A program made the position numbers and the translations under genes. Below, piece by piece: positions 13,768 to 25,920 of a stretch of 64,000 bases of DNA; positions within the stretch are counted from its first letter, which is position 1, and every line of letters starts with the position of its first letter. The notes under the pieces are model-generated. The model did not search any database and was not told the origin of the DNA. It was given only the letters and a program-made list of their open reading frames with translations. Origin of the DNA: Thermasporomyces composti (lineage in GTDB: Bacteria > Actinomycetota > Actinomycetes > Propionibacteriales > Actinopolymorphaceae); the NCBI RefSeq assembly GCF_003386795.1, contig NZ_QTUC01000001.1, positions 4,030,001-4,094,000 of the forward strand, read 5' to 3'.

Positions 13768-15144
13768 ATGAGCGAGCCTCCCCGGCCCGGGCCGGAGTTG
13801 CGGATCCACGGCCCGTGGCTCAGCCCGTCTGTCCGGTCCTTCCTCGCCAACGAGACCGGCGGGGCGTTCATGCTCCTCCTCGCCACCATGGTGGCGCTGG
13901 CGTGGGCCAACTCGCCGTGGTGGGAGACCTACGAGGTGTTCTGGCGGACACCTGTGTCGGTGTCGGTCGGCCAGACGCACCTCGACCTCAGCGTCCACGA
14001 CCTGGTGAACGACGGGGCGATGGCCCTGTTCTTCCTGGTCCTGGGGCTCGAGATCAACGAGCAGCTCACCACGGGATCCCTGCGTGATCGGCGAACGGTG
14101 ATGGTCCCAGCCTTCGGCGCCCTCGGCGGCGTCGCTGTGCCGATCGCCATCTACCTGGCCATCAACCCAAGCGGCGACGCTGTCCACGGATGGGGCACCG
14201 TGATGTCCACAGACACCGCGTTCGTCCTCGGCATCCTGGCGCTCTTCGGCCCCGAGTGCCCGGACGCACTCCGGCTGTTCCTCCTCACGCTGGCCGTGGT
14301 GGACGACGTCGTGGCCATCACCTTGATGGCCGTCTTCTACAGCTCGGAGGTGCAGCCGTGGGCGTTGCTCGCCGCGGCGGTCATCGCCGTGACGATCATG
14401 GTCGTGCGCTGGATCGGTGTCTGGCGCCTCACACCCTACGTGCTCCTGGGCATCGCCCTATGGGCGGCGACCTTCCGCGCCGGTGTGCACCCCACCCTCG
14501 CTGGTGTCCTCATGGGGCTGCTCGTGTCCATGCGACCGACTGGTGTGGAGCACGCGAAGCGCCTGCGGATCTACGGGCGAGCGCTCCTGGAGGAGCGGAG
14601 CGCCGAACGCGCACGGATGGCACAGCTCGCCGTGGCGGCCACCGTGCCGGCTGGAGAGCGGCTGCAGCGGGCCGTGCACCCGTGGACGGCGTACGTCATC
14701 GTGCCGGTGTTCGGCCTAGCGAACGCGGGCGTCCATCTCGACGCGGAGCTGCTGCGCGCCGCCGCCACCTCGCCGGTCAGCCTGGGCGTCGTGGCCGGCC
14801 TCGTGGTGGGCAAGGTGGTCGGGATCAGCGGGGCGTCGGCGCTAGCGCTGCGCACCCGTCTCGGCGTGCTCCCGGGACAGGTGCGCTACAGCCATCTGGT
14901 CGGTGGCGCGGCGCTGAGCGGGATCGGCTTCACGATCTCGCTGTTCATCGCCGAGCTCGCCTTCGGCCACCCAGTCCTGCGCGAGGAGGCCACGATCGGC
15001 ATCCTGATCGCCTCGTTGGTCTCCGCCGTCGCGGGATCGGCGTTTCTGCGTCTGATGGGACGCCGCTGGTCCCTGTGCTCTCCGGAGTCGGAGACCCCAC
15101 CCGACCTACCGCCGCCACCATGGACGGCGCCGGAGAGACCGTGA
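13768..15144 (+). CDS. nhaA: Na+/H+ antiporter NhaA
   Basis: The 458-residue membrane protein shows the full NhaA pattern. It has the N-terminal helix SVRSFLANETGGAFMLLLATMVALAWANSP, the LNDGAMALFFLVLGLEI-like segment, the TDTAFVLGILALFG unwound-helix motif near residue 150, and the ion-binding Asp pair in LAVVDDVVAITLMA near residues 178-179. The C-terminal GIGFTISLFIAELAFG helix is present. It exchanges cytoplasmic Na+ (or Li+) for external protons in pH and salt homeostasis. The final 39 bases overlap the end of the convergent DsbA-like gene. Confidence 0.93.
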   Translation: MSEPPRPGPELRIHGPWLSPSVRSFLANETGGAFMLLLATMVALAWANSPWWETYEVFWRTPVSVSVGQTHLDLSVHDLVNDGAMALFFLVLGLEINEQLTTGSLRDRRTVMVPAFGALGGVAVPIAIYLAINPSGDAVHGWGTVMSTDTAFVLGILALFGPECPDALRLFLLTLAVVDDVVAITLMAVFYSSEVQPWALLAAAVIAVTIMVVRWIGVWRLTPYVLLGIALWAATFRAGVHPTLAGVLMGLLVSMRPTGVEHAKRLRIYGRALLEERSAERARMAQLAVAATVPAGERLQRAVHPWTAYVIVPVFGLANAGVHLDAELLRAAATSPVSLGVVAGLVVGKVVGISGASALALRTRLGVLPGQVRYSHLVGGAALSGIGFTISLFIAELAFGHPVLREEATIGILIASLVSAVAGSAFLRLMGRRWSLCSPESETPPDLPPPPWTAPERP

Positions 15145-15639
15145 CAGACCAGTCGCCCGTTGGAGGGCGCGAAGCTCGACCCGATCGGCGTACGGCTCGT
15201 CGTTGACGAACAGGGTCGGGGTGCCGCGCACGCCCTGGCGGACACCAGCCGCGTAGTCGCTGCGCACCTTTGGGACGAAACGTTGCGCGGGCTCTCCGAC
15301 GGCCAGGTCCGGGTCGGCGCCGACCGCGTCGGCGTACCCGCGCAGGGCTGCGTCGTCGAGTCGGTGCTGTCGCTTGAACAGCAGGTCGTGCATCTCCCAG
15401 AAGACACCGCTCAACTGCGTCGACTCCACGGCCAGGGCGGCGGTCAGGGCGTGCGGATGGGTCTCGAAGAGCGGGAAATTGCGGAAGACGAGACGAACCA
15501 CGCCGTCGGACATCTCGACCAGCTCACGCAGAACCGGCGCGGCGGCCGCGCAGTAGGGACATTCGTAGTCGCCGTACTCGAGGACCGTCACCGGTGCGTC
15601 GAGAGCGCCCCGGATGTGCTCGACCACCTCGTCCGACAT
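15106..15639 (-). CDS. DsbA-like thioredoxin-fold protein
   Basis: A 177-residue thioredoxin-fold protein with active-site YECPYC in a DYECPYCAAAAPVLREL context and the cis-Pro block RGTPTLFVNDEPY. This is the DSBA/FrnE-like arrangement with a helical insertion between. No signal peptide is seen from the ATG at 15639, so it acts in the cytoplasm or starts elsewhere. Actinobacteria often carry a DsbA-like domain fused to NhaA, so its position next to nhaA, convergent and overlapping, is notable. Role: disulfide exchange or detoxification, partner unknown. Confidence 0.8.
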   Translation of the reverse strand: MSDEVVEHIRGALDAPVTVLEYGDYECPYCAAAAPVLRELVEMSDGVVRLVFRNFPLFETHPHALTAALAVESTQLSGVFWEMHDLLFKRQHRLDDAALRGYADAVGADPDLAVGEPAQRFVPKVRSDYAAGVRQGVRGTPTLFVNDEPYADRVELRALQRATGLSRSLRRRPWWRR

Positions 15640-15850
15640 CCGTCCAGTGTGCCGCGCCGAGCGCGCGACTCGGCTCCGGTCGACCCGCCCCACCTCGAGG
15701 GCAGGCATGCCGGGAGGATGAAGCGGGAAGAGGACAACTGCCGCGCCGCAGATCGGCGAGTGTGGCAGGACGGCGGCTCCCACGGCCGGAGATCGCCACC
15801 AGCTCCGGCAGGAACGCCTGCGACGATGAACTCGGCGGAGGGATGCCAGC

Positions 15851-18436
15851 GTGGTCGGTGTCGCGCGATCGTTGCCGTCCACCGCGCGCCCGCGCATCTT
15901 GGTCGTCTCGGCGAGGATCGGCGGTGGCCACGACGCCGCCGCCCGCGCGCTCATCGAGGCCGTCCGTCAGCGGTGGCCGCGCGCCCACATCCGGTGGGTC
16001 GACACGCTCGACGCGATGGGTCCCGGTGTCGGGCCGGCCTTCTGCTGGACCTACGCCACGAGTGTCGAGCACGCTCCGTGGCTCTACGAGCTGTTCTACG
16101 CCGCGACCTGGCACGTCGGGTGGTTCCGTCGGGCGTCCAAGCGCTTCACGGGGAGCTGGGCGGGTCGACGGTTGGCGCCGGAGATCGACGCTTTCGCCCC
16201 CGAGCTGATCCTGAGCACCTACCCGCTCGGCAGTGGAGGCTTGGCGTGGTTGCGCCGCCATCGAGGGCTCACCGTGCCCACGCTCGCGTGGGTCACTGAC
16301 TTCGCTCCCCACCCCTTCTGGGTGTACGGCGACCTCGACCTCACGCTTGTGCTCCACGAGGTCGCTGTCCCGGTGGCCAGGATTGCTGAGCCGTCCACGA
16401 ACGTCGCGGTGTCAGCACTGCCCGTGCAGCGAGACTTCCGACCCGGCGACCAGGTGGCCGCCAGGCGACGGTACGGCTTGCCCAGCGATGCCTTCGTCGT
16501 CCTGCTGTCGTGCGGAACCTTCGCGTTCGGCGTGCGTGAGTCGGTCGTACGCGCGCTCCTCGACGTGGACGACCGGGTTCACGTGGTCGTGGCGTGCGGG
16601 CGCAACCGTGCCGCACTCGCTCGACTCGAGCGACTGCGAGTTCGTCTCCGTCACCGGGACGCTCACGAGGGAGGCCACCTGCGTCCCGCCTGGCGCCGCC
16701 TGCTGCCGTTGGGGTGGACCGACGACATGGCCGGCGTCAACCAGGCCGCGGACGTCGTGGTGACCAACGCCGGTGGGGCGACGGCGCTGGAGGCGATCGC
16801 CACCGGTCGTCGGGTCCTCATGCTCGACCCGATCCCAGCGCACGGCACCGCCAACGCGAGCCTCATGGCGGTGGCCGGCCTGGCGGAGGTGTGCCGTTCA
16901 CCAGCCGAGCTCGCCGCCAGGGTCCGCACCCTGGTCGACGAGGCCGGGGCGGAGGCGCCCGGGCTCGCCGCTCGCGAGCCGCTGCCAGGTCAGGACCTCG
17001 CGGGTCAGGTGGTCGAGCTCGCGACCAACGCGGTGGCCGCCTCGACCGTGGACCCCGGTGAGCTCGAGGTCGGCACACCGGGGCCGGTCTGGCCCATGCG
17101 CCCGCAGGACGCCTTCTTCACCAGGGCCGAGCGTGACGGTGAGCCGCAGGAGCTCGGCGTGGTGCTGGAGCTCGAGCCTCCGGAGTCGGGACCACCTGTC
17201 GACCTCGACGTCCTCGTCCGGCTCTTCACCGAGCGTCTCCCACACCTTCCACCGCTGCGGCGGCAGCCGATGCGACGGGGGGCGAAGCTCGGCTGGTCAC
17301 CCTGCGTCGACGTGGACGTGCGGGCTCACCTCGCCGAACGAGTCGTCCACTCGCCGGAGGAGGCCGCGGAGGCGATCGACGCGTTCTGGTCGACGCCGAT
17401 CCCACGGGACAGGCCGCTGTGGCAGGCCCTCCTCGTCCGCCCACCGGCCGACGGCGGTTACCAGCTGGCCCTCAAGCTCCACCACAGCGTCGGCGACGGG
17501 CTGTCCGCCCTCGGGCTGCTCGAGAACCTCTGGGACGCTGAAGCCGACCCGAGCCGAGGGGCCCACGCAGGTGACCACATCGAGCGCGGAGAACGAGGGC
17601 GGATCCGGCCGCATGGAGCACGTCGGGCGCGTGGCGGGCTCGGGGAGTATGGCGGCCTCCGTACCGCGCTCCAGACGCTGCGAGGTTTGGCCCGTCTAGC
17701 GGTCCAAGGGGGCGCGCCCGCCCACCCGCTCAACAGGGTGGCCTCCACGCCCGATGGGTCTCAGACGGAACCGTCTGCGGCCTCTCGGACGGTCGTGGCG
17801 GCCGCGCTGGCGGCCGACGAGCTTCGCCGGACGGCGCGTCGCCACGGCGTCCGCACGTTCGAGCTGGCGCTCGCCGTGATGGGTGAGGTCGTGGACCGCA
17901 TGCTCCGACCGGCCGGCCTGCTCGCACCCGGTCGACCCCTGCGCGCGTTCGTTCCGCTCACGGTCCGACCGCGCACACCGTGGCGGGTGTTCGGCAACTG
18001 GACCACCGCAGTCACGGTGGAGCTGCCGACCGGACCGCTGGCGCCAGCGGAGCGACTCGCTCGGATCCGAACCGGTCTCCACCGTGGCGTCGCGCGCGGC
18101 GAGCCCGTGGCGGCCGCGTTCGTCACAGGGCTCGCGGGACATCTCCCGGCCGCGGCTCATGCCTGGTTCGCTCGGCACACCTACACCAGCCGATTCCTCA
18201 ACCTGGTTGTGACGTACCTGCCCGGTCCACGTGAGACACGCCGCCTCGCCGGCGCGAAGGTGCGCGCGATCTATCCGGTGGCGCCTTTGACTCGAGGGGT
18301 TCCGCTGACCATCGGAATGGTCACCACCGGCACCACGGCGGGGATCGGCCTGCTCGCTGACAGGAGGCTCGGCCTAGACGCCAAGACGCTGACCGCGACC
18401 GTCCGCGACGTCATGCAGGACTTCGCGGAGGGCTGA
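15851..18436 (+). CDS. fusion protein: MGDG synthase-like glycosyltransferase + WS/DGAT-like acyltransferase
   Basis: An 861-residue two-domain protein. Residues 1 to about 400 match the MurG-like GT28 family of diacylglycerol glycosyltransferases: ILVVSARIGGGHDAAARALIE is the MGDG-synthase N-domain signature, WVTDFAPHPFW follows, and TNAGGATALEAIATGRRVLMLDPIP is the sugar-nucleotide donor site. From about residue 420 the sequence is a wax ester synthase/diacylglycerol acyltransferase. Its catalytic motif HHSVGDG begins at His544, and FGNWTTAVTVELPTG and RFLNLVVTYLPGP are later blocks. The GTG start has GGAGGG eight bases upstream. I infer that one polypeptide glycosylates and acylates a lipid, giving an acylated glycolipid. 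The downstream membrane protein is translationally coupled. Confidence 0.85.
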   Translation: MVGVARSLPSTARPRILVVSARIGGGHDAAARALIEAVRQRWPRAHIRWVDTLDAMGPGVGPAFCWTYATSVEHAPWLYELFYAATWHVGWFRRASKRFTGSWAGRRLAPEIDAFAPELILSTYPLGSGGLAWLRRHRGLTVPTLAWVTDFAPHPFWVYGDLDLTLVLHEVAVPVARIAEPSTNVAVSALPVQRDFRPGDQVAARRRYGLPSDAFVVLLSCGTFAFGVRESVVRALLDVDDRVHVVVACGRNRAALARLERLRVRLRHRDAHEGGHLRPAWRRLLPLGWTDDMAGVNQAADVVVTNAGGATALEAIATGRRVLMLDPIPAHGTANASLMAVAGLAEVCRSPAELAARVRTLVDEAGAEAPGLAAREPLPGQDLAGQVVELATNAVAASTVDPGELEVGTPGPVWPMRPQDAFFTRAERDGEPQELGVVLELEPPESGPPVDLDVLVRLFTERLPHLPPLRRQPMRRGAKLGWSPCVDVDVRAHLAERVVHSPEEAAEAIDAFWSTPIPRDRPLWQALLVRPPADGGYQLALKLHHSVGDGLSALGLLENLWDAEADPSRGAHAGDHIERGERGRIRPHGARRARGGLGEYGGLRTALQTLRGLARLAVQGGAPAHPLNRVASTPDGSQTEPSAASRTVVAAALAADELRRTARRHGVRTFELALAVMGEVVDRMLRPAGLLAPGRPLRAFVPLTVRPRTPWRVFGNWTTAVTVELPTGPLAPAERLARIRTGLHRGVARGEPVAAAFVTGLAGHLPAAAHAWFARHTYTSRFLNLVVTYLPGPRETRRLAGAKVRAIYPVAPLTRGVPLTIGMVTTGTTAGIGLLADRRLGLDAKTLTATVRDVMQDFAEG

Positions 18437-18437
18437 G

Positions 18438-19349
18438 GTGGGCCCGGGTGACGCGCTCGCCGTCCTCTTCGCGCTGAGCGCGGCGGCGTCCTTCGGCGGT
18501 GCCGCAGCATTGCAGGAGAGAGCCGCCCACCGAGTCCCCGACACCGGCCTGGCCAGCGTCCGGCTGCTGTTGGCGCTCCTCCGGCAGGAGGGTTTCGTGC
18601 CGAGCCTGTGGCTGGCGATGCTCGGGTTCGTCCTCCAGGCGGTGGCCTTGCGGTTCGGTCCGCTGACCCTCGTCCAGCCTTTGCTCATCACCGGGACGCT
18701 GTTCTTCATCGGCTTCACCTGCGTGATTCGTCGGCAGTCTCCCGACCTGTGGCTGGTTGTCGGGAGCGTCTTGGCCCTGGCCGGTCTCACCGCCTTCATG
18801 CTGGTCGCGCAGCCGTCCGGTCAGGCGAACGAGTTCCACCCGAGCAGGTCGATCCCGCTCGTCATCGGCCTGGTGGCGACGGTCGTCGGCTGCCTGTTCC
18901 TCGCTCGGCGACTCTCCGGCGGCGTGCGCGCCTTGCCCCTCGCCGTGGCGACGGCGATCTGCTATGGGGTCACCGCCGGTCTGGTTCGCAGTCTGGCCGC
19001 CAGCTTCGACGGCGACCTGCTCTGGCTCGTCGGGCAGTGGCGGCTCTACGCGATTGCGCTCGTAGGGGCGGCCGGCTTCGCGCTCAACCAGCAGGCCTAC
19101 CAGAAGGGCATCATCGGTGTCCTCGCGGTTGCCACGATCACGGTGGGGGATCCTGCGGTCTCGATCGGCGTCGGCGTGGCGTGGCTGGGGGAGTCCATCC
19201 GGGGCGGACCATGGGCCACCTTCGGGGAGGTGGTGTCGCTGTTGGTGGTCGCGGGCGCCATCGTGCTGCTCGCCGCTCGGTCTCAGCGCCTCGGCGGGCG
19301 GATGGCCGGGAAGCCGACGCACACCGTCCAAGCGATCGATCGCGACTGA
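18438..19349 (+). CDS. DMT-superfamily (EamA-like) membrane transporter
   Basis: A 303-residue protein with about nine to ten hydrophobic helices and the two-repeat layout of drug/metabolite transporters: LAVLFALSAAASFGGAAALQ, FGPLTLVQPLLITGTLFFIGF, then KGIIGVLAVATITVGDPAVSIGVGVAWLGE. The GTG start at 18438 is two bases past the stop of the glycosyltransferase-acyltransferase gene, so they form one unit. Members move metabolites or flip lipids. Given the partner, translocation of the glycolipid product is a reasonable guess. The terminal GRMAGKPTHTVQAIDRD tail is cytoplasmic. Confidence 0.78.
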   Translation: MGPGDALAVLFALSAAASFGGAAALQERAAHRVPDTGLASVRLLLALLRQEGFVPSLWLAMLGFVLQAVALRFGPLTLVQPLLITGTLFFIGFTCVIRRQSPDLWLVVGSVLALAGLTAFMLVAQPSGQANEFHPSRSIPLVIGLVATVVGCLFLARRLSGGVRALPLAVATAICYGVTAGLVRSLAASFDGDLLWLVGQWRLYAIALVGAAGFALNQQAYQKGIIGVLAVATITVGDPAVSIGVGVAWLGESIRGGPWATFGEVVSLLVVAGAIVLLAARSQRLGGRMAGKPTHTVQAIDRD

Positions 19350-19371: not shown

Positions 19372-20073
19372 CTAGCCTGTCCCACCCACCTTGTCGAGCA
19401 CCTTGTCCCACCATGTGCGCATACCGCTCGGGTAGCGGGCTCGCGACCTGGCCAGCCGCTGGCTCCCGGGCCGGTACCACCGACGCGCCCACAGCGAGCC
19501 CGGCTTGGCCAGCCGCAGCGCCGCCACCACGGCGACGATCGGCACGACGATACCGATGATCCCGGCGCTGGTCTTGCCCTTGGCGATCGCCACGAACGCG
19601 AAGGTCAGGTTGACGGCGACCGTCACGCCGACGGCCAGCGCGCCGGTTCCGGCGTCAGGGGCCAGCGGATCAGCGCCGAGGAGCAGCAGGCCGCCGATGG
19701 TCGCAGTGACCAGCACGGCATCGACCGACGTGCGGCCCTCGTTGGTCCAGTAGACGTCCTGCAGGCGCAGCCACAGCGCGAACTCGTCCAGCGTCAGCGC
19801 AGCGCCGCACGCGAACGCCGCAGCGAGCACCTCCAGCCAGGGCGACGGCGGCTGGTAGGCGAACTCGAGCGCGCCGGTGACGAGCATGAGGAAGATCCCG
19901 TAGACCTCGTGGTGTACGTGCACGTTCCCGAGGCGGAGGTTGTGGAACGGGCCACGGTGTGCCCGGATCATCCGCGTGATGAGACGAGTCACGAGGAATG
20001 TCACGACGAAAGCGAGGAGCATCCAGGCCAGGACGCCGCGCCCGGGACCGCCGCCCAGCTCGATGTCGATCAC
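19372..20073 (-). CDS. multi-pass membrane protein of unknown function
   Basis: The 233-residue protein starts with GTG at 20073, with GGAGGGGG upstream. It has about six hydrophobic segments (LAWMLLAFVVTFLVTRLI, IFLMLVTGALEFAY, VLVTATIGGLLLLG, LAVGVTVAVNLTFAFVAIA, IIGIVVPIVAVVAALRLA). A conserved-looking His-rich loop NVHVHHEVYGI follows the first helix, and a basic cytoplasmic tail ends the protein. I recognise the type as an actinobacterial conserved integral membrane protein but cannot assign a function. The His cluster could bind a metal. It is convergent with the DMT transporter gene. Confidence 0.7.
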   Translation of the reverse strand: MIDIELGGGPGRGVLAWMLLAFVVTFLVTRLITRMIRAHRGPFHNLRLGNVHVHHEVYGIFLMLVTGALEFAYQPPSPWLEVLAAAFACGAALTLDEFALWLRLQDVYWTNEGRTSVDAVLVTATIGGLLLLGADPLAPDAGTGALAVGVTVAVNLTFAFVAIAKGKTSAGIIGIVVPIVAVVAALRLAKPGSLWARRWYRPGSQRLARSRARYPSGMRTWWDKVLDKVGGTG

Positions 20074-21416: not shown

Positions 21417-22421
21417 CTAGACGGGCGCCGCGAGGCAGACGGCGAAGTCTCCGGCCGGGTCGGTCCACCACGCCTCGAGCGCGAGACCGGCTGCCGCGAG
21501 CTCCCGCTCCACACCGTCGCGGCGGAACTTCGCCGAAACCTCGGTGCGCATCTCCTCGCCTTCGGCGAACTCCACGGTGAGGTCGAGACGGGCGATGCGA
21601 ACCCGCTGGCGCACGACCGAGCGCAGCCGCATCTCGATCCACTCGTGCTCGGCGTCCCAGAGCGCGACATGCTCGAACGCCTCTGGGACGAAGTCCCCGT
21701 CCAGCGCCCGGTTGATGACATGGAGCACGTTCCGGTTGAAGTCGGCGGTGACACCGGCCGCGTCGTCGTAGGCGCGGACCAGACGGTCCGGGTTCTTCAC
21801 CAGGTCGGTGCCCAGGAGGAGGCGGTCGGACTCGCCGAGACAGGCTCGACAGGCGGCCAGGAACCTCGCACGGGGGCCCGGGGTGAGGTTGCCGATCGTG
21901 CCGCCGAGGAAAGCGACGAGACGGGTTCCCACGCGTGGCAGCAGGGAAAGGTGGCGCTCAAAGTCGGCGACCACGCCGTGGGTGTCGACGTCTGGGTAGT
22001 CCACCCGGAGGGACTCGATCGCCCCCTGCAAGGCGCTGTCGCTCACATCGACCGGGATGTATCGAGTGAGCGTCTGAGCGGCCCGCATGCCGTCCAGCAA
22101 CAGTCGGGTCTTCGTCGACGAGCCGGAGCCCAACTCCACCAGCGTGTCCGCTCCCGCCCGCGTCGCGATCTCAGCCGCGTGGGCGGCGAGGATCGCCTGC
22201 TCCGCACGGGTGGGGTAGTACTCCGGCAACGTGGTGATGCGCTCGAAGAGGGCGCTGCCCCGGGCGTCGTAGAAATACTTCGGCGGCAGAGACTTCGGCG
22301 TACGACGCAGTCCGTCGCGGACGTCGCGGGCGAGGCTCGCGGCCAGGTCCGCGTCGGTGAGGTAGCGGGTGAGCTGGACCACCTCGCGGCAGCCGGACTG
22401 GTGGGTCACGCGGTCGGTCAC
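21417..22421 (-). CDS. egtD: EgtD, histidine N-alpha-trimethyltransferase
   Basis: A 334-residue S-adenosylmethionine methyltransferase that converts histidine to hercynine, the first step of ergothioneine synthesis. Family blocks visible are LPPKYFYDARGSALFERITTLPEYYPTRAEQAIL, the SAM site TLVELGSGSSTKTRLLLD, IPVDVSDSAL, VAFLGGTIGNLTP and LLGTDLVKNPDRLVRAYDDAAGVTADFNRNVL. The GTG at 22421 is preferred because AGGGAGG lies five bases upstream; an in-frame GTG seven codons earlier has none. It is last in the minus-strand egtA-egtB-egtC-egtD series. Confidence 0.95.
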   Translation of the reverse strand: MTDRVTHQSGCREVVQLTRYLTDADLAASLARDVRDGLRRTPKSLPPKYFYDARGSALFERITTLPEYYPTRAEQAILAAHAAEIATRAGADTLVELGSGSSTKTRLLLDGMRAAQTLTRYIPVDVSDSALQGAIESLRVDYPDVDTHGVVADFERHLSLLPRVGTRLVAFLGGTIGNLTPGPRARFLAACRACLGESDRLLLGTDLVKNPDRLVRAYDDAAGVTADFNRNVLHVINRALDGDFVPEAFEHVALWDAEHEWIEMRLRSVVRQRVRIARLDLTVEFAEGEEMRTEVSAKFRRDGVERELAAAGLALEAWWTDPAGDFAVCLAAPV

Positions 22422-22457
22422 CTGAGCCTCCCTTGCGGACACGCGGCTGGTCGAGTG

Positions 22458-23183
22458 CTAGAGCGGGGTGATCTCGACGCCGTCCTCGTTCGCCTCGACC
22501 AGTGAGCGGGGAGGAACGGCCGTCCAGTGGAGGTCATCGTGGGGCTCAGACGCCAGGACGATCGCCGTCGGCGTCTGTCGGACGAAGAGCGTGTCGCCCC
22601 AGGTCGTGCCTGCGACACGGGCGCCGTCGGTGGCCAGCAGGTTGAGCCGACCGCCGCCGACCGCCACGACGTCGCGGATCGTCTGGGCCAGACCGGTGGC
22701 CAGGTCCGCGCCGGCCTGCCAGTGCGCCACGGCGCGTCCGAACAGCAAGGCCGAGTCGAGCGGGGCGAGGGCATCCGGAACCCATGCCGTGGCCTCCGTG
22801 AGCGCCTTCCGGGCGAGCTGGAGGTCGTGGAGGACGCCGTTGTGGCTGAACAGCCAGCGGCCGTAGGTGAACGGCGCGACGCCGGACTCCTCGCAGGGGT
22901 AGCCGGGAGTCGCGGACCGAACCGCGGCGAGGACGGCGGTGGAGACGATCGTCGGGGCGAGGCTGGCGAACGACTGGTCGCTCCAGATCGGCTGCGCGCG
23001 CCGGTACCGAACCGGCTCCGGACGCAGCGGGGAGTACCAGCCCACGCCGAACCCGTCGACGTTGACCGAGCCGAACCGCTGCTGGCGAGGTGCGTACGCC
23101 TGCCGGGACAGCGAGTGCGGCGGCTCGAGCAGCAGGGCCGACAAGGTGATCGGGTGGCCGAGGTAGGCAAGGTGGCGGCACAT
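22458..23183 (-). CDS. egtC: EgtC, gamma-glutamyl hercynylcysteine S-oxide hydrolase
   Basis: A 241-residue class II glutamine amidotransferase-fold enzyme. Met1 is followed by the catalytic Cys2 (MCRHLAYLGHPITL), exposed after Met removal. FSHNGVLHDL, the NVDGFGVGWY segment and DSALLFGRAV are family blocks. It removes the gamma-glutamyl group from the EgtB product in ergothioneine synthesis. It lies between egtB (12-base gap) and egtD. Confidence 0.95.
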   Translation of the reverse strand: MCRHLAYLGHPITLSALLLEPPHSLSRQAYAPRQQRFGSVNVDGFGVGWYSPLRPEPVRYRRAQPIWSDQSFASLAPTIVSTAVLAAVRSATPGYPCEESGVAPFTYGRWLFSHNGVLHDLQLARKALTEATAWVPDALAPLDSALLFGRAVAHWQAGADLATGLAQTIRDVVAVGGGRLNLLATDGARVAGTTWGDTLFVRQTPTAIVLASEPHDDLHWTAVPPRSLVEANEDGVEITPL

Positions 23184-23195
23184 GGTCGGGACCCG

Positions 23196-24548
23196 TCAGG
23201 CGTCGCGAGCGCAGCGGAAGCCGACGAAGATCTGCCGGCGGATGGGGAAGTCCCAGTTGCGGAACGTGGTTCGACAGGCAGTGGGATCGGTCGCCCACGA
23301 GCCGCCGCGCAGCACCTTGTACTTGGAGCCGAAGAACACCTCGGAGTACTCCCGATACGGGAACGCCCGAAAGCCGGGATAGCCGGTGAAGGACGTGGAC
23401 GTCCACTCCCAGACGTCGCCCACCATCTGGAGTGCCCCGACCGGCGAGGCTCCGCGCGGGAACGAGCCCACCGGAGTCGGCTGAAGACGGACCTGGCCGA
23501 GGTTGGCGTGCTCGGCTCCGGCCTGCTCGTCACCCCAGGGGTAGCGGTACTTGACCTTCCGCACCGGATCCCAGGACGCCGCCTTCTCCCACTCCTGCTC
23601 GGTCGGCAGTCGCTTGCCGGCCCAGCGCGCGTAGGCCTCCGCCTCGTACCAGCACACGTGCTGCACCGGCTCGTCCATCGGCAAGGGCTCGACGCGGCCG
23701 AACCTGCGCCGGAACCACTCGCCGTCGGATCGCAGCCAGAAGGCCGGGGTGCGCTTGTTCGACCGTTGCCGCCACTCCCAACCGGCCGGCGACCACCACC
23801 GCGGGTTGTCGTATCCGCCGTCCTCGACGAAGGCGACGTACTCGGCGTTGCAGACCGGGGTGGTGTCGATCCAGAACGCCGGGAGATTGACGACGTGGGC
23901 GGGGCGCTCGTTGTCGTAGGCCCACGGGTCGGTCGACGTGCCCATGACGAACTCGCCGGCCTCGACCAGCACCTCCGCGGGCGTCGGCGCCGTCACGCGG
24001 GGAACGGGCGGCGGGTCGGTGCCGAGCAGGACCGGTTCGCCGCGGCGTAGTTGGTGGGTGGCGAGCATGGTCTCGTCGTGCTGGTGCTCGTGTTGGATCA
24101 CCATCCGGTAGACGAAGCCGTCGGCGAGGAGCGGCTTGTCCGGGGAGAAGCGAACACTCGCCAAGGAGTCGAGCACCTTCCGGCGGACCAGGCCGATGTA
24201 GTCCTCCGCCTCGGTCGGGTCGAGCAACGGAAGTGAAGGCCGCTCCGCCCGAGGATGCTCGAAGGCGTTGTACAAGTGGTCGATCTCGGGGCGCATCGGA
24301 GCGACGCCGACCGCGGCACGCAGCAGCCACAGCTCCTCGTAGTTGCCCACGTGGGCGAGATCCCAGACCAGCGGCGACATCAGACGCGAGTGCTGCTTGA
24401 CCAGCTCGTCCTCGTCCAAGACCCGGGTGGTGAGGGCGAAGCTGCGGGCGCGGACTCGCTCCAGCTCGCCGGCGAGGAGCTCCCTGAGTCGCTCGGTGTC
24501 GGTCTCAGTCGGCGCGTCGGAGGACGTGAGCGGTTCGGTCTCGTTCAT
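23196..24548 (-). CDS. egtB: EgtB, hercynine oxygenase (sulfoxide synthase)
   Basis: A 450-residue protein with an N-terminal DinB-like helical domain carrying the iron-binding histidines (WDLAHVGNYEELW and IQHEHQHDETM) and a C-terminal FGE-sulfatase/C-type lectin domain (VEAGEFVMGTS, KRLPTEQEWEKAASWDP, VGDVWEWTSTSFTGYPGF, VLRGGSWATDP). It joins gamma-glutamylcysteine to hercynine by O2-dependent C-S bond formation. The ATG at 24548 has GGGAGG seven bases upstream; a longer frame to 24593 adds an unconvincing basic extension. The 5' end overlaps the egtA 3' end by 44 bases. Confidence 0.95.
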   Translation of the reverse strand: MNETEPLTSSDAPTETDTERLRELLAGELERVRARSFALTTRVLDEDELVKQHSRLMSPLVWDLAHVGNYEELWLLRAAVGVAPMRPEIDHLYNAFEHPRAERPSLPLLDPTEAEDYIGLVRRKVLDSLASVRFSPDKPLLADGFVYRMVIQHEHQHDETMLATHQLRRGEPVLLGTDPPPVPRVTAPTPAEVLVEAGEFVMGTSTDPWAYDNERPAHVVNLPAFWIDTTPVCNAEYVAFVEDGGYDNPRWWSPAGWEWRQRSNKRTPAFWLRSDGEWFRRRFGRVEPLPMDEPVQHVCWYEAEAYARWAGKRLPTEQEWEKAASWDPVRKVKYRYPWGDEQAGAEHANLGQVRLQPTPVGSFPRGASPVGALQMVGDVWEWTSTSFTGYPGFRAFPYREYSEVFFGSKYKVLRGGSWATDPTACRTTFRNWDFPIRRQIFVGFRCARDA

Positions 24549-25839
24549 CTGGGTCCTCCCTGTGGATCCCGGTCTTCGCGGCCTCCCCGTCACCGCCCGC
24601 CTTCGTGGTGGCCTCCGACCGCCACGCGCGTCGGGACCCGGTGGTCTCGGCGCACGCGGAAGAGCGGACGTCGTCGGCCGGGCTGCGGCCTCGGGCCACG
24701 TAGCGGTCGGTGTAGGACTCGACGAGCGAGATGAGCGCCGGATCGGCGTTCGAGGTGGTCAGCTGGTCGAGCGCGGCGTCGAAGCAGACTCGGGCGGCGC
24801 GCGCGAGGGCCGGGGAGGCCAGACCGTCTCGCGCGGCTTCCTCCCAGGCGTCCCGCACCGGCTCGACAGCGGCCTCGACCCGGTCGCCCACCGCTGGGTC
24901 GTCGACCAGCGCGCTCAGCACCGCCAGCGGAACCGGCCAGTACGCGGTCGATTGAGCGTCGAGGTAGCGGACCTCGAACCAGCCGCGGGGCCGTACCGGT
25001 GGAAAGAGGGTGGTGAGGTGGTAGGCGAGGTCCTCGGTGGTGGGTCGCGTGTCGACGCTCTCGACCCACTGCCGGAAGGTGAGTCCGGGATCGGTTCGGC
25101 GGCGTCCGTCGGAGAGCCAACGCACCATGAGAGGTGCGTCGAGCGCGTAGTCGGTCCAGGCGCGCACAGGGTTCGCGCCCTCAGGCGGGCGTGTTCGAGG
25201 AGGATCGAGGCGTAGCCACACCGCCTGTCGGGTTGACTTCCAGCCGGTGTCGCGTCCGGCGTGTCGCGACGAGTTGGCGAACGCGGCGACGAGCGTCGGT
25301 CCGATGGCGTGGAGGAGCCGCCAGCGGCGGGCGACGTCCGCGCAGTCGACTCCGACGTCCAGATTGACCTGGAGGGCCGCCGTGCCGCACATCATGACCC
25401 TGCCAGCCGGGCCGCGCCGGTCGAAGTAGGCCTCCATCGTGTCGTAGCGCGGGTTGAAGACCTGGCGTCGCGGACGTCGCACCGGGTCGGTGCCCGTCCC
25501 CAGCAACGCGAGTCCGCTGGCGGCGAGCGCGGCCTCGACGTGCTCGAGGTCGGCTGTCACGCCTTTCCAGCAGGCCACGACTCCTGGCGCGGCTGGGGAG
25601 CTCAGCTCGAGCTGACCGCCAGGTTCGAAGCTCACGCGGCTCCCACCCGGCAAGGGTTCGGCATGGTCGAGGACCGAGCGGATGGCGTCCAGCGGGACAT
25701 GGCGGCTCGGATCGGACGGAGCGATGACGAACCACTCCAGTTCGACACCCACCGTGACAGCCGGGCCGGTGGGGAAGCAGGTGGTCGCGACGTACCGATG
25801 GACGTCCTCGCTCGTGCTCAGCTGTCTCGCCCCGGCCAC
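24505..25839 (-). CDS. egtA: EgtA, glutamate-cysteine ligase of ergothioneine synthesis
   Basis: A GCS2-family ligase of about 444 residues. It has VGVELEWFV near the start, FEPGGQLELSSPAAPGV, RYDTMEAYFDRRGPAGRVMMCGTAALQVNLD, LVAAFANSSRH, DYALDAPLM and WFEVRYLDAQ, all matching EgtA. It makes gamma-glutamylcysteine for EgtB. GTG 25839 has GGAGG four bases upstream; an in-frame GTG at 25857 is an alternative. The last 40 residues are low-complexity and overlap egtB, probably a late-acquired tail. Downstream of gcdH on the same strand with a gap of about 80 bases. Confidence 0.92.
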   Translation of the reverse strand: MAGARQLSTSEDVHRYVATTCFPTGPAVTVGVELEWFVIAPSDPSRHVPLDAIRSVLDHAEPLPGGSRVSFEPGGQLELSSPAAPGVVACWKGVTADLEHVEAALAASGLALLGTGTDPVRRPRRQVFNPRYDTMEAYFDRRGPAGRVMMCGTAALQVNLDVGVDCADVARRWRLLHAIGPTLVAAFANSSRHAGRDTGWKSTRQAVWLRLDPPRTRPPEGANPVRAWTDYALDAPLMVRWLSDGRRRTDPGLTFRQWVESVDTRPTTEDLAYHLTTLFPPVRPRGWFEVRYLDAQSTAYWPVPLAVLSALVDDPAVGDRVEAAVEPVRDAWEEAARDGLASPALARAARVCFDAALDQLTTSNADPALISLVESYTDRYVARGRSPADDVRSSACAETTGSRRAWRSEATTKAGGDGEAAKTGIHREDPDERDRTAHVLRRAD

Positions 25840-25920
25840 GGCACCTCCCACGAGCACTTCGAGGTGAGGATGCCCGTGTCCGTGCGGGGCTAACTTTTGT
25901 CGGTGGTTTGCGGACCGGGC

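Follow-up and report, generated by a model that had tools for sequence, protein, structure and literature searches.

A fused glycosyltransferase-acyltransferase gene in Thermasporomyces composti

We analysed a stretch of 64,000 nucleotides from Thermasporomyces composti (NCBI RefSeq assembly GCF_003386795.1, contig NZ_QTUC01000001.1, positions 4,030,001 to 4,094,000 of the forward strand), referred to here as the window. One of its genes encodes a glycosyltransferase (GT) of family GT28 joined to an acyltransferase of the WS/DGAT family, and is followed immediately by a gene for a DMT-type membrane protein. An earlier note, made from the letters of the window, had singled out this pair as a possible system for synthesis and export of an acylated glycolipid built on diacylglycerol. 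Comparison with other actinomycetes confirmed the architecture and pointed to hopanoid metabolism instead. The features concerned are the following, in window coordinates:

15851..18436, plus strand: fused GT28-WS/DGAT gene, single open frame of 861 aa, GTG start, TGA stop
15887..17035, plus strand: N-terminal GT-B module (GT28, MGDG_synth-like), approximately residues 13-395, placed by Pfam, alignment and AlphaFold model
17078..18433, plus strand: C-terminal WS/DGAT module, approximately residues 410-861, placed by Pfam, motif survey and AlphaFold model
18438..19349, plus strand: DMT-family membrane protein, 303 aa, NCBIfam DMT_1 (NF038012), 88.9 bits against a cut-off of 50

Pfam models for both modules matched the window protein. 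MGDG_synth was found at residues 27-170 (53.4 bits, cut-off 25), WS_DGAT_cat at residues 416-667 (80 bits, cut-off 23.6) and WS_DGAT_C at residues 715-856 (66 bits, cut-off 20.7). The GT28 C-terminal domain scored 18.4 bits at residues 288-364, under its cut-off of 22, and passed with 34.2 bits in a relative's fusion (locus L116; L and G numbers are our handles for loci and genomes). The start codon of the fused open reading frame (ORF) is uncertain, as conserved sequence begins near residue 15. The NCBIfam model for the wax ester/triacylglycerol synthase family (TIGR02946) gave 216.4 bits against a cut-off of 309.95, and that for UgtP-type diglucosyl diacylglycerol synthase (equivalog NF010135) 110.4 bits against 500, so that the fusion is a full member of neither family.

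The GT module carries GGGH at residues 24-27 and GGATALE at residues 308-314. In an alignment with PDB entries 9wde and 4wyi, GGGH lines up with that of MGD1, in which its His is catalytic. The WS/DGAT module has its HHxxxDG motif intact, as the earlier note had observed, in the form HHSVGDG at residues 544-550; H545, D549 and G550 are invariant in 29/29 fused WS domains and H544 is present in 28. The Asn-Asp motif in the second half of the domain, important in WS/DGAT enzymes, has lost its canonical residues and reads Phe-Glu in the window protein; over the 29 fused rows Asn occurs once and Asp three times, with Glu replacing Asp in 26. Near residue 789, the Asn of 36 other rows is replaced in the fused rows by Tyr (23/29), Val (4) or Ile (2). 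These substitutions suggest that the acceptor site of the WS module may be altered. Unfused domains used for comparison were not all canonical either, since 19 of 23 other WS/DGAT-like domains have Gln at the second motif His column.

An AlphaFold model built from 25 fused sequences reached a mean predicted local distance difference test (pLDDT) score of 83.6 and a predicted template modelling (pTM) score of 0.69. Residues 11-398 of the model matched MGD1 (4wyi; Z 29.2, 318 residues, root-mean-square deviation 3.2) and residues 414-861 matched the WS/DGAT enzyme 6chj_A (Z 35.3, 349 residues, root-mean-square deviation 3.2). Both modules are thus confidently predicted to adopt their family folds, and their catalytic motifs are intact.

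A single base separates the fusion stop from the DMT start, bearing out the tight coupling that had been noted. The DMT protein passed NF038012, with Pfam EamA remaining under its cut-off. NF038012 was also passed by 5/6 further proteins tested near fusions; the protein at L036:8994-9824 failed (30 bits).

The fusion is a patchy actinomycete family

The fusion was sought in 147 related genomes (best 6 candidates per genome scored) and in a class sample of 394 genomes (best 2 candidates per genome scored). Named actinomycete genomes were scanned with a profile of seven full-length fusions, which yielded 25 loci; three genomes of the relatives set (G005-G007) are also among these. Full-length fusions were present in 7/147 relatives, namely the window genome and all six sampled genomes of one sister genus, in which the fusion is kept at 49-54% identity. 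None was found in G001, the sole sampled genome of the family's third sampled genus, and the class-wide sample gave full fusions in 2/394 genomes. The named loci belong to Actinopolymorpha, Micromonospora, Actinocatenispora, Intrasporangium, Kutzneria, Gandjariella, Sciscionella, another Micromonosporaceae strain and several metagenome-assembled genomes (MAGs). The fusion is therefore not unique to the window but forms a patchy family across several actinomycete families.

Both modules lie in one uninterrupted frame in 24/25 loci, the remaining one (L054) running off its contig inside the gene. Together with the conserved fusions of the sister genus, this excludes a frameshift, an assembly error or chance as the source of the fusion; the first two had been named by the earlier note as what would refute it. 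In a tree of WS domains (65 rows, 29 fused) and in one of GT domains (56 rows, 30 fused), all fused rows fell on one side of one branch (Shimodaira-Hasegawa-like approximate likelihood ratio test support of 98 and 99, respectively), in trees built by a quick method with midpoint root and no bootstrap, and carrying long-branch warnings. As both trees set the fused rows apart by one branch, the data fit a single fusion event. The WS tree, with a minimum of 331 residues, omits L054 (truncated), L117 (short) and L122 (not a WS/DGAT), and the GT tree omits GT matches under 250 residues. In the WS tree the fused clade was separate from the other WS/DGAT-like paralogues sampled. The window genome (one contig, 4.37 Mb) carries a second WS/DGAT-like gene, unfused, at 3.42 Mb.

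Hopanoid genes face the fusion in relatives

Genes in the fetched loci were called by codon usage and labelled by similarity to those of L116, a procedure that may miss small genes and that missed the GT of L155, recovered by genome search. In the 25 loci a recurrent order emerged: fusion, DMT gene and short-chain dehydrogenase (SDR) gene, then a hopanoid cluster on the opposite strand comprising hpnH, hpnG-ispH, squalene-hopene cyclase (SHC), a polyprenyl synthase gene (ispA), hpnE, hpnD, hpnC and a dxs-like gene. Opposite-strand hpnH was located 766-7216 bp downstream of the fusion in 17/25 loci, from Actinopolymorpha, Micromonospora, another Micromonosporaceae strain, Intrasporangium, Gandjariella, Kutzneria, Sciscionella and two MAGs (labelled Amnibacterium and Microlunatus). 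For three of the eight loci that lack hpnH, the contig stops no more than 2.8 kb from the fusion. The SDR gene was directly downstream of the fusion or one gene off in 21/25 loci. A DMT relative was present in 23/25, directly downstream in 14 and divergent within ~2 kb upstream of the fusion in nine. We take the DMT protein to be a likely flippase or exporter for the fusion's product. Clustering of neighbours, with rarer families annotated in part, returned as families present in at least 4 of the 25 loci the fusion itself, the SDR, two DMT families, hopanoid/isoprenoid genes and PAP2.

The complete module was found in the relative G342, where fusion, DMT and SDR genes face a whole hopanoid cluster from hpnH to the dxs-like gene. 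HpnH (510 bits), SHC (747), HpnE (394), HpnC (271) and IspH exceeded NCBIfam cut-offs there, and Pfam confirmed a polyprenyl synthase domain in the ispA product and transketolase-type domains in that of the dxs-like gene. HpnD was slightly under its cut-off (273.9 against 278.6 bits); the HpnG half was also under its own (61.6 against 187.1 bits) and passed the Pfam phosphorylase model.

A different arrangement was seen in two genomes of the sister genus, at L119 (G002:C1:3470000-3489000) and L034, where the fusion-DMT pair faces a second set of hpnH, ispA, hpnD and hpnC without SHC; the set of L119 also has dxs-like and hpnE genes. In both G002 and G006, two HpnH proteins exceed the cut-off but a single SHC does.

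The fusion co-occurs with squalene-hopene cyclase

SHC exceeded its cut-off in 23/25 genomes of the fusion loci compared with 88/394 genomes of the class (Fisher p 1.6e-12). Among the relatives it was present in 22/147, that is in 7/7 genomes with the fusion and 15/140 without (Fisher p 6.7e-7); both tests ignore shared ancestry. In the family of G342, the fusion occurs in 1/17 genomes and SHC in 1/17, in the same genome. HpnH and SHC were both over cut-off in 8/8 fusion genomes tested and in 0/7 hand-picked non-fusion genomes.

We also considered HpnI, a GT2-type enzyme, as the glycosyltransferase of the fusion genomes. HpnI (TIGR03472) exceeded its 310-bit cut-off in 0/35 handles, corresponding to 34 distinct genomes of which 4 lack the fusion (best score 76 bits), and this candidate was rejected.

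The short-chain dehydrogenase often stays with hpnH

The window genome has HpnH and SHC at 2.51 Mb, with an SDR gene abutting hpnH. This SDR, kept with the hopanoid cluster, is the same gene that elsewhere comes after the fusion, and only the fusion and DMT genes stand apart. In the sister genus, the SDR gene abuts hpnH of the main cluster in 5/6 genomes, with five genes between them in G007.

The SDR gene was found beside hpnH, with or without the fusion, in many of the actinomycete clusters examined: L115:7786-8586 (window genome, C1 ~2.51 Mb), L154-L160, L166, L167 and L172-L176. It was mostly on the opposite strand, with L159 (same strand) and L156 (one gene between) as exceptions in layout. 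It was not beside hpnH in L162, L163, L164, L170 and L171; L164 has it at the hpnC end, and in L162 and L163 a class-III aminotransferase gene comes after dxs in its place. The SDR is a candidate for the unassigned reductase converting ribosylhopane to bacteriohopanetetrol (BHT).

Proposed function and evidence against it

Because of where the gene lies in relatives, and of its co-occurrence with SHC and HpnH, the fusion very likely acts in hopanoid metabolism. More specifically, it seems on the whole probable that it adds a sugar to a C35 bacteriohopanepolyol and a fatty acyl group to the resulting product, which the DMT protein would likely flip. Also speaking for this are the SDR beside hpnH in the window genome, the near relatives of the WS domain that lie beside hopanoid clusters (described below), the lack of any HpnI over cut-off, and the intact motifs and confidently predicted folds. 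From the observed fusion, its motifs, the predicted folds and the genomic tie, we infer which lipid is modified and at which hydroxyl it is acylated, which kind of donor supplies the sugar, in what order the modules act and that the product is flipped, as follows. HpnH and then an HpnG-like protein, encoded elsewhere in the genome, would produce adenosylhopane and then ribosylhopane, which the SDR encoded beside hpnH would probably reduce to BHT. Using a nucleotide-sugar donor, the GT28 module may then glycosylate the polyol side chain. With acyl-CoA as donor, the WS/DGAT module would add a fatty acyl group to this glycoside, either on its sugar or on side-chain hydroxyls that are still free. 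The DMT protein would finally flip the acylated glycosyl-hopanoid across the membrane.

Several observations weigh against this reading. The fusion-DMT pair of the window lies 1.5 Mb from the hopanoid cluster and no hopanoid gene adjoins it. At five of the 25 loci (L032, L033, L038, L046 and L052), hpnH was not found in the 6.9-10 kb downstream; L046, from Kutzneria sp. 744, has SHC ~24 kb downstream of the fusion. Two of the 25 fusion-locus genomes have no SHC over cut-off: none was found in the 2.4 Mb MAG G514, and G524, which carries the truncated L054, has it only as a contig-edge fragment. In the class sample, 86/88 SHC-positive genomes lack the full fusion and 2/88 carry it, so hopanoid producers do not need the fusion. 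In 5 loci from Micromonosporaceae the fusion has a PAP2 phosphatase gene beside it, a recurrence that would suit glycerolipid metabolism as well. The nearest relatives of the GT module with solved structures, 9wde and MGD1 (4wyi), are diacylglycerol glycosyltransferases. Lastly, hopanoid genes were detected in 1/12 regions (L125) around stand-alone GTs chosen by score, and the GT tree gave no support for a common origin specific to the fused GT and the hopanoid-adjacent stand-alone GTs, the latter falling in the wider family.

Alternative substrates and unfused relatives

The last points but one bring back the substrate proposed by the earlier note: the GT28 module would glycosylate diacylglycerol, the WS/DGAT module would acylate the glycosyl-diacylglycerol (or make triacylglycerol, drawing on the same pool), and the DMT protein would export an envelope or storage lipid. 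Besides the solved relatives and the PAP2 genes, this fits the fact that wax esters and triacylglycerols are the products for which WS/DGAT enzymes are best known, and that among the matches listed the window genome shows no second GT of the fusion's kind. We nevertheless regard it as unlikely. The fusion tracks hopanoid genes both in position (17/25 loci) and in occurrence, its recurrent neighbours (in at least 4 of the 25 loci) are SDR, DMT, hopanoid/isoprenoid and PAP2 genes, and its score with the diglucosyl-diacylglycerol synthase model is a small part of the cut-off. A diacylglycerol-based lipid is thus no longer the best reading of the locus; the link to hopanoids was invisible from the window, because the hopanoid cluster lies elsewhere in the genome.

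Unfused relatives of each module bear on whether the fusion makes one doubly modified hopanoid. The 15 SHC-positive, fusion-negative genomes among the 147 relatives all belong to one genus. We fetched eight hopanoid regions from this genus, four chosen for a WS match near SHC and four without that criterion, and found the SDR next to an unfused WS/DGAT gene beside hpnC in 7/8 (3/4 of the unselected regions). In L122, the gene beside the SDR was not a WS/DGAT. Six WS rows of this genus and 7 other rows formed the clade nearest to the fused rows in the midpoint-rooted WS tree. All seven genomes of these other rows have SHC over cut-off, and their regions contained hopanoid genes in 2/7 cases (L138 and L143), both of which encode a fusion of PAP2 with WS/DGAT. 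The expectation that all sister WS domains are hopanoid-adjacent was thus only partly borne out. Control regions around other WS/DGAT-like genes contained hopanoid genes in 0/7 cases. Stand-alone GT relatives accompanied by a NodB-type deacetylase were found beside the hopanoid cluster in L125, L154, L155 and L156, the last three having been picked for proximity of GT and SHC and serving as illustrations rather than a count; the 12 regions chosen by score did not support a hopanoid link for all close stand-alone GTs.

PAP2_3-WS/DGAT fusions were present at L137:1556-3556, L138:9377-11437, L139:8036-10318, L142:9010-10911 and L143:8436-10439. In L137, L139 and L142 this architecture occurs with hopanoid genes not within reach of the fetched regions.

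The two modules might work on hopanoids separately, the GT making glycosyl-BHT and the WS/DGAT a BHT fatty ester, with no doubly modified lipid and the fusion serving just to hold two tailoring enzymes together. The unfused WS/DGAT genes of the related genus, beside the SDR and hopanoid cluster in regions where no GT28 relative was labelled, speak for this, as do the unfused GT and deacetylase genes beside other hopanoid clusters (L125, L154, L156). On the other side, retention of one fusion clade across several families points to product channelling, although it is only suggestive, and we give separate action little probability. Sequential glycosylation and acylation of one hopanoid remains our preferred reading.

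A further arrangement of stand-alone GTs was observed in six of the 12 regions chosen by score, L128-L132 and L134, where a GT28 relative (596-660 aa), a gene for 230-281 aa and a DMT gene lie in a row, away from hopanoid genes. For the middle gene, both loci tested (L129 and L131) gave a NodB-type deacetylase, and the trio recalls Arn-type export of a lipid-linked amino sugar. That the acceptor of the fusion is some other isoprenoid or polyprenyl lipid (a carotenoid, or an Arn-type lipid-linked amino sugar), the hopanoid genes merely sharing its precursor supply, would fit these trios, of which that of L131 lies in a genome with no SHC match in the class survey (G155), and the general role of the cluster's dxs-like, ispH and polyprenyl synthase genes in precursor supply, but is very improbable because the hopanoid-specific hpnH, hpnG-like and SHC genes travel with the fusion (carotenoid genes were not searched separately).

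Relation to known systems

The preferred hopanoid reading invites comparison with the HpnI, HpnK and HpnJ proteins, which, according to a 2025 study, make BHT N-acetylglucosamine, BHT glucosamine and BHT cyclitol ether from BHT; the study also states that the ribosylhopane-to-BHT enzyme is not yet established (PMC12583986). As in that branch (PMC12583986), a C35 bacteriohopanepolyol made by way of HpnH and HpnG would be glycosylated in the proposed one. They differ in that the 34 genomes examined have no HpnI over cut-off, and that the fusion's GT is predicted to be of GT-B fold and has an acyltransferase fused to it. Fusion, DMT flippase and SDR (as the ribosylhopane-to-BHT enzyme) could possibly constitute a dedicated actinomycete module for acylated glycosyl-hopanoids, unlike HpnI-HpnK-HpnJ, a proposal we put forward tentatively.

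With MGD1 and UgtP (GT28; 4wyi, 9wde) the fusion shares its fold, and with MGD1 the GGGH motif, but it is far under the UgtP-type equivalog cut-off, is joined to a WS/DGAT module and is hopanoid-linked. Likewise, it shares fold and HHxxxDG with WS/DGAT enzymes (6chj, 7nxg) but scores under TIGR02946, forms a separate clade and has the Asn of the Asn-Asp motif replaced in 28/29 rows. The Arn-type pathway comprises a GT, a NodB-type deformylase and the ArnE/ArnF flippase. The resemblance lies in the combination, within one module, of a GT, a modifying enzyme and a DMT-superfamily protein, and in the NodB-type deacetylases that accompany stand-alone GT relatives; the fusion, however, has a GT from another family, a hopanoid context and an acyltransferase in place of the deacetylase.

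The predicted type of product has a precedent. Hopanoid side chains can bear sugars or acyl groups, and the N-acylglucosaminyl BHT of Alicyclobacillus has both (PMC8537080). In that Firmicute the acyl group is N-linked (PMC8537080), whereas the product of the fusion is predicted to be O-acylated. The earlier note knew of no described enzyme with the combination of modules. This held for the open-licence literature, where neither such a fusion nor a comparable hopanoid acyltransferase was described among the matches listed; the combination itself proved to be shared by a family extending well beyond the window. The fused proteins are thus members of known enzyme families with a newly proposed hopanoid role.

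Other genes of the window

Further genes were recorded around the fusion-DMT pair:

13768-15144: NhaA antiporter gene
15106-15954, strand opposite to the NhaA gene: DsbA/thioredoxin-like ORF
19372-20073, minus strand: membrane-protein-like ORF, 233 aa, converging on the DMT gene
21417-25857, minus strand: ergothioneine cluster egtD, egtC, egtB, egtA

The listed start of the DsbA/thioredoxin-like ORF overlaps the start of the fusion gene, and its true start is probably further inside. The ORF at 19372-20073 had no Pfam or NCBIfam match at E 0.01, and all four ergothioneine genes were over their NCBIfam cut-offs.

Implications for actinomycete hopanoids

Hopanoids, which correspond in bacteria to sterols, are important as molecular fossils. 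The present analysis names candidate actinomycete genes for their glycosylation, acylation and flipping, and offers the SDR for the missing reductase. If the proposal is true, intact acylated glycosyl-hopanoids would be expected in Actinopolymorpha, Micromonospora and their relatives, and routine hopanoid analyses could miss such lipids, given their mass and polarity.

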